From NCBI GenBank assembly GCA_002105175.1, contig MCGE01000021.1, forward strand, positions 248,001 to 312,000: a DNA stretch of 64,000 bases. The letters run 5' to 3'. Positions 42,816 through 49,182 of this stretch are shown one piece after another. How positions within the stretch are numbered: the first letter of the stretch is position 1; the number at the start of each line of letters is the position of its first letter. A program made the position numbers and the translations under genes. This DNA comes from Absidia repens. Its lineage: Eukaryota; Mucoromycota; Mucoromycetes; Mucorales; Cunninghamellaceae. A model generated the notes under the pieces. That model did not search any database. It was not told the DNA's origin and saw only the letters and a list, made by a program, of their open reading frames with translations.

Positions 42816-43954
42816 CTACATTACAATGCAACATTTCAAAAATTTGGTCGGCTTGTCCAAAGTTGCTCGGGCAGCATGTTCAAAGAGTTCGTCTACACCT
42901 TCGTTAGCCTTTGCTGAGCATTCCTAGGAGCCGAAAGAAAAAGAGTCAGTCGTACGAGTTTTTAAAAAGACACATTCTCCCATACCCAGTGTTTGTAAGC
43001 CTTGATTTCTCGAGCTACTGAAATTGCCTATGCCAAACAAGATGAGATCAAAAGTTTTACAAGTTGTTTTATATATATATATAACATCTTACCTGCTCCA
43101 ATGGCACTACAGATGCATGGTCTTCACCAAACCCAGGTTCTTCGCGTAGCTCCTTCTTGAGTCCCACAAGCAGTAGCGGAACATCAGGACAATGACGTCG
43201 TACCTCGGGTACCCACTATATAACAGCATAAACTTAGATCATGATACTTATTTAACCTTTTATTACGCTTACCTTTTCCTGTATTTGTTCCAATGAGGTG
43301 AGACTATCCACTGCATAGCAAAGGCAAACAACATGTGTATCAACGTAGAAAAGCGTGCGCAAGCGATCATATTCTTCTCTACCTGTAAATGACAAAAGAG
43401 AGTGAATATTTTGTTGGTGTTTTGCCTTTTCTGCCATACCAACTGTATCGCATATTTTCACCGCCACAGGCTTATAATCCACTTGGATTGTAGAATTAAA
43501 GTCTTCATAAATTGTAGGTACAAATCTCTGCAAATAAAGGAAATTGAGTTTGACCACATGTTCTTCTATCATTCCCCCCCCCCTCCACCATCTCGTTTAC
43601 CAATGGGAAGATCTTCCTTTCAAATGACGCTACAAGACATGTCTAATTGGATAAAACGAGTGAGTTTTTCAAAATGAGTTTTAATAAAAAAACCTGTAGT
43701 GAAGCAAGGACATACTCTGTTTATCCAAACAATAATGACAAAAGAAAAACACATGATGAGCATCGTCACCATGTACTAAGCTTGGGCAAAAAGCGCGCAT
43801 TCAAACTTACTCTATATATGAAATATAAAAATAAAAAATGAAAAATAAAAAATAAAAAAATCAGCTTTTTTTTAACATGTTCACTATATTACATTGACTT
43901 ACTTCCACAGTTAGGGTCACCAACAAAAAGAATTTTTTTTCTGATATATTTCAT
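42816..43954 (-). CDS. Divergent Rho-family small GTPase with two one-nucleotide exons
   Basis: Proposed exons: 43954-43903, 43811 (1 nt), 43716 (1 nt), 43642-43601, 43527-43440, 43382-43273, 43215-43093, 43027-42986, 42923-42816; 188 residues. G motifs: P-loop GDPNCGKT, effector loop [10 protein letters not shown], switch [14 protein letters not shown], base-contact region VGLKKEL, ECSAK, and a prenylation CaaX box (C-C-I-V-M end, Cys-Ile-Val-Met). Rho-type lengths and order fit throughout. Oddities: Val at the Ras-59 position (usually Ala), Arg at position 61 (usually the catalytic Gln), and Glu where KxD is usual, so GTP hydrolysis and nucleotide choice may be altered. The P-loop Lys codon AAA is assembled from three exons. 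An alternative 23-nt exon (43717-43695) would also keep frame but put seven residues between the P-loop Lys and Thr, which should destroy nucleotide binding. Confidence 0.82.
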
Positions 43955-44366
43955 TTAAAGTAAAAAGGAACAGTTGAACGTGCGTAAAAGAGCTGCGCCC
44001 ATTTCTTCAGGGGTGACGCAAATATTCAAATTCCGATTGTAGCAAGAATAACAATCAAAAAAGGTCAATGAAAAGAAAGACGATCCTCCACTAGACTGGG
44101 CTATGATCATCATTTCAATTTGATCCCGGGTCGTGGAAGGAATGAACACAGACCTGCACATTAAGAATGCGCCAATAAAACACTAAAGGAAAGGTGGTAT
44201 CGTAGTGAGATTTTTTGCATGATTGTTTATCACCGTCGGCCTTATGATCAAAAAAGACAGCAATAAAAGATACATTCTCCAGTACCCAAAATAAGCACAA
44301 ATTAAAATTAGAACGTCACTTTAAAAGATACTTCTGTTTCGTTTGTTCCTGGTTTCTTTTGGTATA

Positions 44367-44368
<2 letters not shown>

Positions 44369-44404
<36 letters not shown>

Positions 44405-44422
44405 TTGTTGTTGTTGTTGTTG
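44369..44422. repeat. (CTG)n-(TTG)n trinucleotide repeat
   Basis: About ten CTG units followed by GTGCTG and six TTG units, about 70-125 nt upstream of the oxidase TATA box. Non-coding as far as I can see. Confidence 0.85.
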
Positions 44423-44498: not shown

Positions 44499-44568
44499 GA
44501 GAGTGCCCATTTTTCTCGTTCCTTCTTTTTTTTCATCTTTATTTTCTTTTAATATACACATTGACAAC

Positions 44569-46657
44569 ATGCATTCTGCTGACCATGTTTCTGTGTTTTT
44601 TATGCTATTTCTTGCATTCATCGTCATGGTAGGGAGGGTAGACGCCAAAGAACGCACATTTGAATTAAATATCACCAAAGGTCCATGGCCCATGAATTGC
44701 AATAATGAACAGCAACAAGACGACCAAGTCATGATGATCAATGGACAACATCCCGGCCCACCCATCCGTGCTACATTAAATGACGATATCCATGTGGTGG
44801 TGCGTAATCATGGCGATGAACCTACAACCGTCCATTATCATGGTATTTTACAAATCGGTACCGTTGAATCTGATGGTATGCCCAACATCACCCAAAGTGA
44901 AATTCAACCAGGTGGTGAATTCCATGCTCGTTTCCGTTTAATTGGTCAATCAGGTACAAAAAAAAAAAAAAAGGCGGTGATTAAAATATTCACTGTTTTT
45001 TTTTGAAAATTCAGGTACATTTTTTTACCACGCGCATGTGGCATTACAAGATGATAGCATTCAAGGACCATTTATTGTATACCCAACCGAAGATGCATGG
45101 CCTCCCAATGTGAATGGCGGTGAACTGGAAAAGCGCAATAATGTTGAACAGGAAGGCTTGAGATTAGTGGATGGACCGTATCGTTATGATGACGAGCGTA
45201 TTGTGCAACTTTCCGAATATTGGGCAGAAAATCCTCATGATCGAATAAACTACTACTTGGGTGCTGAATATCAAGGGTTTATTCCTGCCGATCAATACCT
45301 CATCAATGGCCATGGTGGATCTGCCTCGGTCTCTGCCACTAAATCTGGAAAACATAAACGACAATCTGCGTGCACTGGGATGTCGGCCGTGGAAGTAGCT
45401 CATGGCAAGGTGTATCGTGTACGAGTCATTGGTGCGCTCAGTTTCTCCACACTTGGATTCTCCGTTGCCAAACATAAGATGACGATCATTGAAATGGACG
45501 GTACCTTGATTGAGCCTTATGAAACTGATTATTTGGAAGTCTCCTCTGGTCAACGGTACTCTGTCTTATTGGAAGCCAATCAAGCCCCCGGTAGCTCGTA
45601 TAATATGGATGTGATGCCCTTTTGGATCACTAATACCACCGCCACTGGCCGAGGTATTTTGACCTACCAAGAACAAGAAAGCGAGTCAAGATTGGATGTG
45701 GCCGAAAACTTCCCCAAGGACTTTGCTCTCACCACTCAACAAGCTGCCACCGACGCTACCGAGTTCCAATTCCCTGAGCCTGTCAATCAATGGATCTTCC
45801 AATCTGTCAAGCCTCTAGAAGAAGAAAAATTGGATTTCAATGCCAAGCCGGATCGTACCATTGTCCTGATGCCCATGGAACACCTGGTGGGGGAAATGAA
45901 TACAACACGATGGTTGATCAATGGTCGTCATATGCCTGTGCATGAAACTCCTCTTTTGGAACAACTCAAGAATGACTTCCACGCTGGACACAATGAACGT
46001 CGTTCCATGATGCGTCGTGGAATGAATGCAACAGCCATGAAACTGAACAAGGAAGGCACTTCGGATGGCTTTGATGAAGATTTGCAGACATACCCAATGA
46101 AATATGGCGAAGTGGTGGATGTGGTGATACATACGACTACATTAATTAACCATGGCATTTGTGCAGGTAAAAGGAAAAAAAAAATCAAGGGGACTGGGCG
46201 GCGATTCAAATTAACATGGATTGCCTTTTTTTTTTTTTTTTTTTCTTTTTGGTAGGTCATCCTTGGCATTCTCATGGATTTGTCCATTACCCTATTGCCC
46301 ATGGTATGGGAGAATATAATCATGAAACTGATCAAGATTTACGGACCTATGAACATCCAGTGGCCAAAGATACTACCTTTGTTTACCCCGGCACCACCGC
46401 TTTGGCTCCCGAAGCCGGTATTCCTTGTGGATGGACAAAAGTCAGAGTCTTTGCGGTAAGTTTATATTTCTATTTTTTTTTTAAAAAAAAAAAAAGTTGA
46501 TGGTTTGTTTTTTTTGTGGCTCATCCTTTCTTCCATCTCCTTATAGAATAATCCTGGGTTATGGGCTTTCCATTGTCATATCACTGGTCATATGTTACAA
46601 GGCATGATAGTGATTATAGAAATGGCTACGGATCAAATCAAATACCTTCAACAGTAA
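44569..46657 (+). CDS. Secreted multicopper oxidase (ascorbate oxidase/laccase/ferroxidase family)
   Basis: Four exons: 44569-44953, 45015-46166, 46256-46455, 46547-46657, 615 residues. A signal peptide covers about residues 1-26 (ends VGRVDA). All four copper-ligand segments are visible: HYHG (89-92), FYHAHV, GHPWHSHGF and HCHITGHMLQGM, supplying the T1, T2 and T3 copper ligands. The residue ten after the T1 cysteine is Met, the axial ligand seen in low-potential enzymes such as ascorbate oxidases and Fet3. The HxH element is HYHG rather than the laccase HWHG. No transmembrane anchor after the last cupredoxin domain, so probably a soluble secreted or wall enzyme. Substrate (phenols, ascorbate or iron) cannot be decided from sequence. 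Confidence 0.92.
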
Positions 46658-48111: not shown

Positions 48112-49182
48112 ATGACTACCACCGTTTCTAATTTCCAACCGACTCGACGTAACTCCTCCTCTTCGTCCTCCACCGCTATGAGGATGATGACTTGTTCTCC
48201 ACCTTCATTTGGATTCAGTTCGGTTTTATACTCACCTACTATGAACGATGACCCAAGGTAAATAGAGTAATAAATAACAATCGAGTGTCATTTTACTCAC
48301 ATCTTCTTTTTTTTTTTTTGTTTTTTTGTCAGTGACGAAATCTTGAATGGCGATAAACGATCTGCACATAATGCTTTGGAAAGACAACGTCGAGAAGGTC
48401 TCAACAAAAAATTCCAGCAACTAGCCCATGTTTTGCCCGGGTTACAAAATGTCCGTCGTCCAAGCAAGAGCATGATTGTGGCTAAATCTTTGGAATTTGT
48501 TTCGAAATCTGTGCAACGAGATTCATCTTATCAAAACAAAATCAAACAATTAAGAAAAGAATATCAAACCTTGCGCAAACATACTCAACAGCAACAACAA
48601 CAACAAAGAAGTAAAAAAACCACAGCACCACCACCATTGTTATTGACAAGAAACAACAAAAAACGTGCCCATCGAGAAGATACCAGTCCTTCCAAACGAC
48701 AGAAGCAACCTTATAGTCCTCCTGGTTCCCGTCAAGTGTCCAACGCTACCATTACGCCAACACCATCAGTGACTAAAAAACAGCAAAGTCCCATTCGACA
48801 TAAATTTGTTCATCATCATGCATCAGCATCATCTCCTTCCTCGACATCGTTACCCATTTCACCTGAAAAGAAACCATGCACTGTTTCTCCTCCTCCCGCA
48901 GCACCTGCAGAATCAGCACAAACACAAATGCCAACTACAACAACAACACCACAATACACTATGATAACAGCGCCACCACCACTTGTCCATGAATTTGCAA
49001 TGCAACCCAGTTGGCCACCATTAGACCTCTCTGGAGTCTCCTATATGGACCATTCAGTACCTCCTCCATCTTCGGTGGCGTCGTTGTATCCTTCTCCTCC
49101 TCCCACTGTACCTTTCTTCACAACTCATTCCCCACCTTCCTTTTACCCCACCGATCCTTCTTATGCTTATTTTTGGAAATAA
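48112..49182 (+). CDS. bHLH transcription factor
   Basis: Two exons, 48112-48257 and 48333-49182 (intron 75 nt, phase 2), 331 residues. The basic helix-loop-helix lies at about residues 57-112: KRSAHNALERQRREGLNKKF then LPGLQNVRRPSKSMIVAKSL EFVSKSV. His61, Glu65 and Arg69 are the triad that reads the E-box CACGTG (class B, as in Max/USF). A short coiled stretch follows (QNKIKQLRKEYQTLRKH) with a Gln run, perhaps an abbreviated leucine zipper. The remaining ~200 residues are Pro/Ser/Thr rich and probably disordered. Nuclear, DNA binding as dimer; target genes unknown. Confidence 0.9.

Follow-up and report, generated by a model that had tools for sequence, protein, structure and literature searches.

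The window, a 64,000-nucleotide stretch of the 47.4-Mb genome of Absidia repens (Mucorales; G000:C14:248001-312000), contains a Rho GTPase gene that runs from position 43954 to position 42816 on the minus strand and comprises nine exons of 52, 1, 1, 42, 88, 110, 123, 42, and 108 nt. The joined coding sequence of 567 nt is open and encodes 188 residues, with the P-loop GDPNCGKTC and the C-terminal end ...CCIVM*. This protein displays the features of a Rho-type small GTPase, i.e., a Ras-family domain (Pfam Ras, E=1.5e-39), a P-loop of the form GxxxxGKT, and a CaaX end (CIVM), and its top matches among solved structures are Rho1 proteins. The exons, together with the three introns around the P-loop lysine codon, are laid out as follows in window coordinates.

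43903-43954, minus strand: exon 1, 52 nt, ends ...GGA A and supplies base 1 of the P-loop Lys codon
43812-43902, minus strand: intron 1, 91 nt, GTAAGT...ATATAG
43811, minus strand: exon 2, one nucleotide (A), base 2 of the Lys codon
43717-43810, minus strand: intron 2, 94 nt, GTAAGT...AAACAG
43716, minus strand: exon 3, one nucleotide (A), base 3 of the Lys codon
43643-43715, minus strand: intron 3, 73 nt, GTATGT...AATTAG
43601-43642, minus strand: exon 4, 42 nt, opens at the P-loop Thr codon ACA (ACA TGT CTT)
43440-43527, minus strand: exon 5, 88 nt, switch I region
43273-43382, minus strand: exon 6, 110 nt, switch II region
43093-43215, minus strand: exon 7, 123 nt
42986-43027, minus strand: exon 8, 42 nt
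42816-42923, minus strand: exon 9, 108 nt including the stop codon, C-terminal CIVM (CaaX)

Alignment to the structure matches revealed atypical GTPase residues (43930-43380, minus strand), with GDPNC versus GDGAC in the P-loop and DTVGRE versus DTAGQE further on. The Gln-to-Arg change in DTVGRE falls on what is presumably the position of the catalytic Gln, and GTP hydrolysis by this GTPase may be poor. In the tree the gene lies on a long branch and is weakly placed; its tie to Rho1 rests on the common exon structure described below, not on the tree. Upstream of the gene is a (CAA)n repeat followed by a (CAG)n repeat (44361-44420, minus strand). Adjoining it on the plus strand are ORFs at 44503-46255, which we take from their motifs to be multicopper oxidase-like, and a further plus-strand ORF at 48343-49182 has a start that is presumably bHLH transcription factor-like (HNALERQRREGLNKKF).

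The deposited A. repens protein P0001 equals the spliced product of the window gene at 188 of 188 residues, GKT included, and deposited P0172, from the related locus L060, contains the full 187-residue L060 model with GKT. The presence of GKT in both agrees with the proposed micro-exons and is not proof of them. P0001 leaves the Lys codon unfixed because AAA, given by the micro-exons, and AAG, given by a non-canonical acceptor 2 nt upstream, both encode Lys; an aligner could still obtain Lys without 1-nt exons because two extra bases could be placed on the AG at the intron end. The ortholog from Absidia cylindrospora, P0002, is 72% identical over 165 residues, keeps the C-terminal CCxVM, and also has GREE. 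Both P0002 and P0166, a Rho protein of Absidia glauca, are annotated without a P-loop, and P0002 begins M-TSLVASF, at the point where exon 4 begins in the window gene. The missing P-loops possibly reflect gene predictors stumbling on similar micro-exons.

Splicing solutions at the P-loop lysine codon

An earlier sequence-only reading of this DNA had placed two successive 1-nt exons, at 43811 and 43716, within the P-loop Lys codon, separated by introns of 91, 94, and 73 nt with the donors GTAAGT, GTAAGT, and GTATGT, and direct reading of the strand bore this out base for base. It had also held that joining A+A+A yields Lys in GDPNCGKTC with the frame kept right to the CaaX end, and that the frame is lost without the single bases; indeed, the 567-nt coding sequence is open, and all three modelled skip products are frameshifted and reach a stop by codon 25.

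All chains of GT/GC-AG introns (minimum length 40 nt) that can link the Gly codon to ACA were enumerated. The window gene gave 2960 chains, of which 169 are in frame and free of stops; a single one of these leaves just three nucleotides, AAA, encoding Lys. At 43811 as at 43716, one base lies between AG and GT and is needed for the frame and for the conserved residue, the GKT solution being unique in this gene. In a second, nested enumeration, as many as three GT-AG introns of 45 nt or more could be excised in succession, also at sites formed by earlier joins. The sequence-only reading had offered a stwintron-like arrangement as an alternative, for which this procedure gave no support, as it yielded no other solution in the window gene and no internal intron splitting a donor or an acceptor. 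At a ratchet point of recursive splicing the acceptor abuts the donor and no base is kept; here one base is retained at each of both sites. The competing 23-nt exon does keep the frame and places seven residues between Lys and Thr (GKYVLASLQTC), as had been stated, but it occupies 43716-43694, one base off the location originally given. Altogether, the results support the reading in which the P-loop Lys of the window gene is completed by one 1-nt exon directly after another; this gene offers no other canonical solution.

Micro-exons in related genes of the A. repens genome

Paralogs were found by a protein search of the genome and were then read and chain-enumerated. The following genes carry double micro-exons at the same codons, slashes marking the intron positions; L059 and L064 are taken to be Cdc42-like from their sequence type.

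L063 (C32), Rho1-type: GGA A/A/G/ACN, two 1-nt exons
L061 (C67), Rho1-type: GGA A/A/G/ACN, two 1-nt exons
L060 (C56), Rho1-type: GGA A/A/G/ACN, two 1-nt exons
L059 (C23), Cdc42-like: GG/AA/AG/ACC, two 2-nt exons
L064 (C2), Cdc42-like: GG/AA/AA/ACC, two 2-nt exons

By enumeration, the double micro-exon chain is the sole 6-nt chain in L063 and alone of 3 chains spells Gly-Lys in L064. Gly-Lys is spelled by 3/3 chains in L060 and in L061 and by 3/10 in L059, and the alternative Gly-Lys chains of these three genes use weaker donors or acceptors, one in L059 adding a GC-AG intron. The nested enumeration found a single set of kept bases spelling Gly-Lys in the window gene, L060, L063, and L064, and two such sets in L061 and L059.

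Chance was gauged with dinucleotide-preserving shuffles of the composite intron, in which the outer ends were fixed and each shuffle was counted once, by the first solution met. With good splice sites required, as defined by a rule that was fixed after the genes had been seen, two-micro-exon solutions were absent (0/20,000 shuffles for each gene), and one-micro-exon solutions occurred in 23/20,000 for the window gene and 20 to 36/20,000 across the six. When any GT and any AG were accepted, the frequency of two-micro-exon solutions was 4/3000 for the window gene and 17 to 67/3000 for the remaining five, and that of one-micro-exon solutions was 136/3000 (window gene; 105 to 235/3000 across genes).

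We also used our own spliced aligner, which has ad hoc scores, BLOSUM62, and no limit on exon length, with Halteromyces rhoA (P0113) as the query. Without prior knowledge of the micro-exons it picked the double micro-exon model in 6/6 genes. When exons shorter than 3 nt were disallowed, the score dropped by 10.4 to 26.7 units and the P-loop was corrupted in all six, as given here by gene, change in score, and resulting P-loop.

Window gene: 416.0 to 400.5, GKYT
L059: 491.7 to 481.2, GKTT
L060: 694.4 to 683.4, GKYT
L061: 934.3 to 907.6, stop
L063: 914.8 to 903.4, GKYT
L064: 488.2 to 469.0, stop

Compared without the last exon, which is cut by the query, the aligned exon lengths are 52, 1, 1, 42, 88, 110, 123, and 42 nt in the window gene versus 52, 1, 1, 42, 88, 110, 135, and 42 nt in the three Rho1 copies, differing in exon 7 only; in L060 the start Met precedes the aligned start by one codon. 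No exon shorter than 9 nt was seen in the eight other Rho loci modelled (L062 and L065-L071); of these, the models of L062 and L071 are doubtful in places and were excluded from the intron statistics. The look at further small GTPases covered 30 loci, 16 of which gave no P-loop-like match and 7 of which were viewed, and the 120 top-ranking of 7992 matches to a Rho1 query in a protein search included no separate Rho1 of A. repens.

Over same-length exons, the coding identity of the paralogs is 55 to 88%, and their intron interiors mostly align little better than mononucleotide shuffles (21 comparisons; z of at least 2.5 in five). Site 1 is kept as TAG/A/GTAWGT in the four Rho1-type genes, and site 2 reads TAG/G/GTARGT in the three Rho1 genes and CAG/A/GTATGT in the window gene; the sites of the Cdc42-like pair are TAG/AA/GTAAGY and TAG/AR/GTAAKT. 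Across the three Rho1 paralogs, then, the micro-exons are retained while the introns diverge. Because micro-exons and splice sites persist in paralogs whose intron interiors are mostly unalignable, sequencing error, a pseudogene, and chance are all unlikely.

The 18 introns adjacent to micro-exons have a median length of 92 nt (62-145), and 56 other introns from 12 gene models one of 82 nt (57-413, the 413 coming from a doubtful model end). Composite introns would measure 246-337 nt (258 nt in the window gene), unlike ordinary introns. Branch-point-like matches, by our own scoring, exceeded those of shuffled introns in both classes (p=0.0013 and 6e-5, where shuffles of one intron are not independent). 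The exact TACTAAC occurs in 5/18 micro-exon-adjacent introns, and the matches in introns 1 and 2 of the window gene are modest. Over the six genes, 18/18 modelled skip products (3 per gene, some identical) are frameshifted, with a stop at model codon 20-44.

Four pattern scans of the genome covered some donors only and required the two sites to be 36-96 nt apart, a pattern outside which L060 falls. The first, for tandem micro-exons, gave 2 matches, both Rho1 (C32 and C67), with 0 in the control; the second gave 3 (the window gene, C32, and a repeat-like one at C45; control 6); the third gave 6, none in the Rho genes studied (control 4); and the fourth, for 2-nt pairs, gave 2, at the Cdc42-like L064 locus and at C5 (control 8). 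The control was clearly exceeded by the first scan only, and the likely cases across scans are the loci already known. The tandem 2-nt exon pattern at C5 (L085, G000:C5:797094-797198) is probably due to chance because the controls of that scan gave 8 matches. Scans this narrow neither show nor exclude other arrays.

A separate observation concerns a Ras-like gene, L030, where a single 2-nt exon (AG; L030:1163-1164, C78, ~64.3 kb) is needed for a Glu codon in switch I (FVETYDPT), and whose paralog L034 has one intron at that place. Judged from its sequence, L030 would add a micro-exon of 2 nt or less that is independent of the arrays above.

Alternative readings, splicing mechanism, and origin

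A single composite intron of 258 nt that uses a non-AG acceptor 2 nt upstream (...AATT/AG ACA) would produce the mRNA GGA AAG ACA. Because the introns end in AG, this arrangement gives AAG, hence Lys, in all four Rho1-type genes, and it leaves the deposited protein unchanged. We nevertheless consider it very unlikely: the acceptor would have to end in TT, AT, GT, and AT in those four genes, it is impossible for the two Cdc42-like genes, where GG joined to TTAG makes a stop, and it leaves the retained AG/N/GT sites without explanation. Hardly conceivable, in our view, is an assembly or sequencing error by which two bases went missing at the end of exon 1, with one ordinary intron between Lys and Thr. 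That exon end is A-rich (the stretch at issue is GGAAGTAAGT), and two bases added before the first donor would restore an ordinary gene, yet the same shortfall of 2 nt with complementary micro-exons would be needed at four Rho1-type loci, and a 4-nt version at the two Cdc42-like ones, on six contigs.

It is extremely improbable that a longer exon is used instead, of either 5 nt (GKYT) or 23 nt (seven extra residues). Both are in frame in the window gene, but the 5-nt exon relies on the weak donor GTCCTT and its model scores 15.4 units lower, the analogous L061 model contains a stop, the 23-nt exon inserts into the invariant GKT, and the deposited protein is without either insert. The long branch and the altered GDPNC and DTVGRE motifs could also be read as signs of a paralog in decay, yielding no protein and retaining its splice sites as relics. 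There is very little chance of this, given that the reading frame is open through all nine exons and ends in a CaaX motif, that the A. cylindrospora ortholog retains 72% identity over 165 residues as well as CCxVM, and that the well-conserved Rho1 copies have the same structure, with the 2+2 version in the Cdc42-like genes.

In all likelihood, the window gene encodes a divergent GTPase of the Rho1 type, three exons each contributing one base of its P-loop Lys codon, and three short U2-type introns are removed one by one under intron definition. Having a donor, an acceptor, and a branch-point-like sequence to itself, each intron (91, 94, and 73 nt) could be recognized as a unit, and the three would be removed one after another because a spliceosome cannot sit on both sides of a one-base exon simultaneously. 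From this geometry we infer a stepwise, recursive-type process in which each upstream excision would re-form a donor at the end of exon 1 (GGAA/, GGAAA/, and GGAAAA/ plus GT), and the mature mRNA would join A+A+A. Since skipping any micro-exon results in a frameshift and an early stop, only complete processing would yield the GTPase; decay of the mis-spliced RNA is plausible.

Relative to the Thr codon, the introns lie at -2, -1, and 0 in the Rho1-type genes and at -4, -2, and 0 in the Cdc42-type genes; L065 and L066 carry a single intron each, at -4 and -5, respectively. Two of the three positions, behind GGAA and behind the Lys codon, are common to both families, so that the array must either predate their divergence or have arisen twice at this codon. 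For another fungal gene it has been proposed that a lost exon-end base was rescued by a cryptic 1-nt exon (PMC12940212), and by analogy such an origin would fit the present array. Tandem intron duplication as the origin is not supported, as introns 1-3 within a gene are little alike (18 comparisons, z -2.1 to 3.1, highest in L063).

Relation to known micro-exons and significance

The comparisons that follow draw on portions of the cited papers. The single-nucleotide exon of Arabidopsis APC11, for which intron definition and recursive splicing were proposed (PMC4674806), and the 1-nt microexons of plant APC11 and VPS55 (PMC8831610) resemble the window gene in that a frame-essential one-base exon stands between two introns. 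They have one such exon per gene, whereas A. repens has two in one codon of a fungal Rho GTPase, repeated in paralogs. Closer in setting is the single-nucleotide exon of Fusarium CYP621A, likewise fungal and within a conserved protein motif, which was first deduced from the reading frame and later confirmed by 18 RNA reads (PMC12940212); it is a single micro-exon (AG/G/GT) in a 139-nt composite in F. graminearum, compared with two in composites of 246-337 nt, in 1-nt and 2-nt versions in sister genes, in A. repens. Stwintrons are also adjacent fungal introns that need consecutive splicing reactions (PMC5639578, PMC9024468), but the A. repens introns are complete, with no splice element interrupted and with bases kept between them. 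Re-formation of a donor after the upstream intron leaves, as proposed for A. repens, is described for recursive splicing and RS-exons (PMC6224609); unlike ratchet points, the A. repens sites each keep one or two coding bases. Neighbouring tiny exons occur in rice Os08t0562700 (adjacent microexons of 5 nt and 12 nt; PMC8831610) and in human RPS24 (PMC11162997), and these are not described as 1 nt in the text drawn on. Single-base nuclear exons were found for only a few genes in the literature, chiefly outside subscription journals, and at the level of titles and abstracts that literature yielded no two 1-nt exons in a row, no such array common to paralogs, and no micro-exons in a Rho P-loop. 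Single-base exons tend to escape annotation tools (PMC8831610).

In A. repens, three exons appear to supply one codon of an essential motif, and six genes of the genome follow this pattern in two versions (1+1 and 2+2). The six genes are natural replicates for studying how a spliceosome copes when there is no room between introns, the order of intron removal, and the origin of the array. They also give warning that Rho P-loop exons may be mis-annotated, with one P-loop-less model in each of two other Absidia species. The arrangement in these Rho genes would push the lower limit of gene splicing. That the Gly-Lys array of three introns with 1- or 2-nt exons is selected as a stepwise gate for the fidelity or expression of Rho1 and Cdc42 is a speculation we think rather unlikely; if true, any missed step in the array would frameshift the master polarity GTPases.
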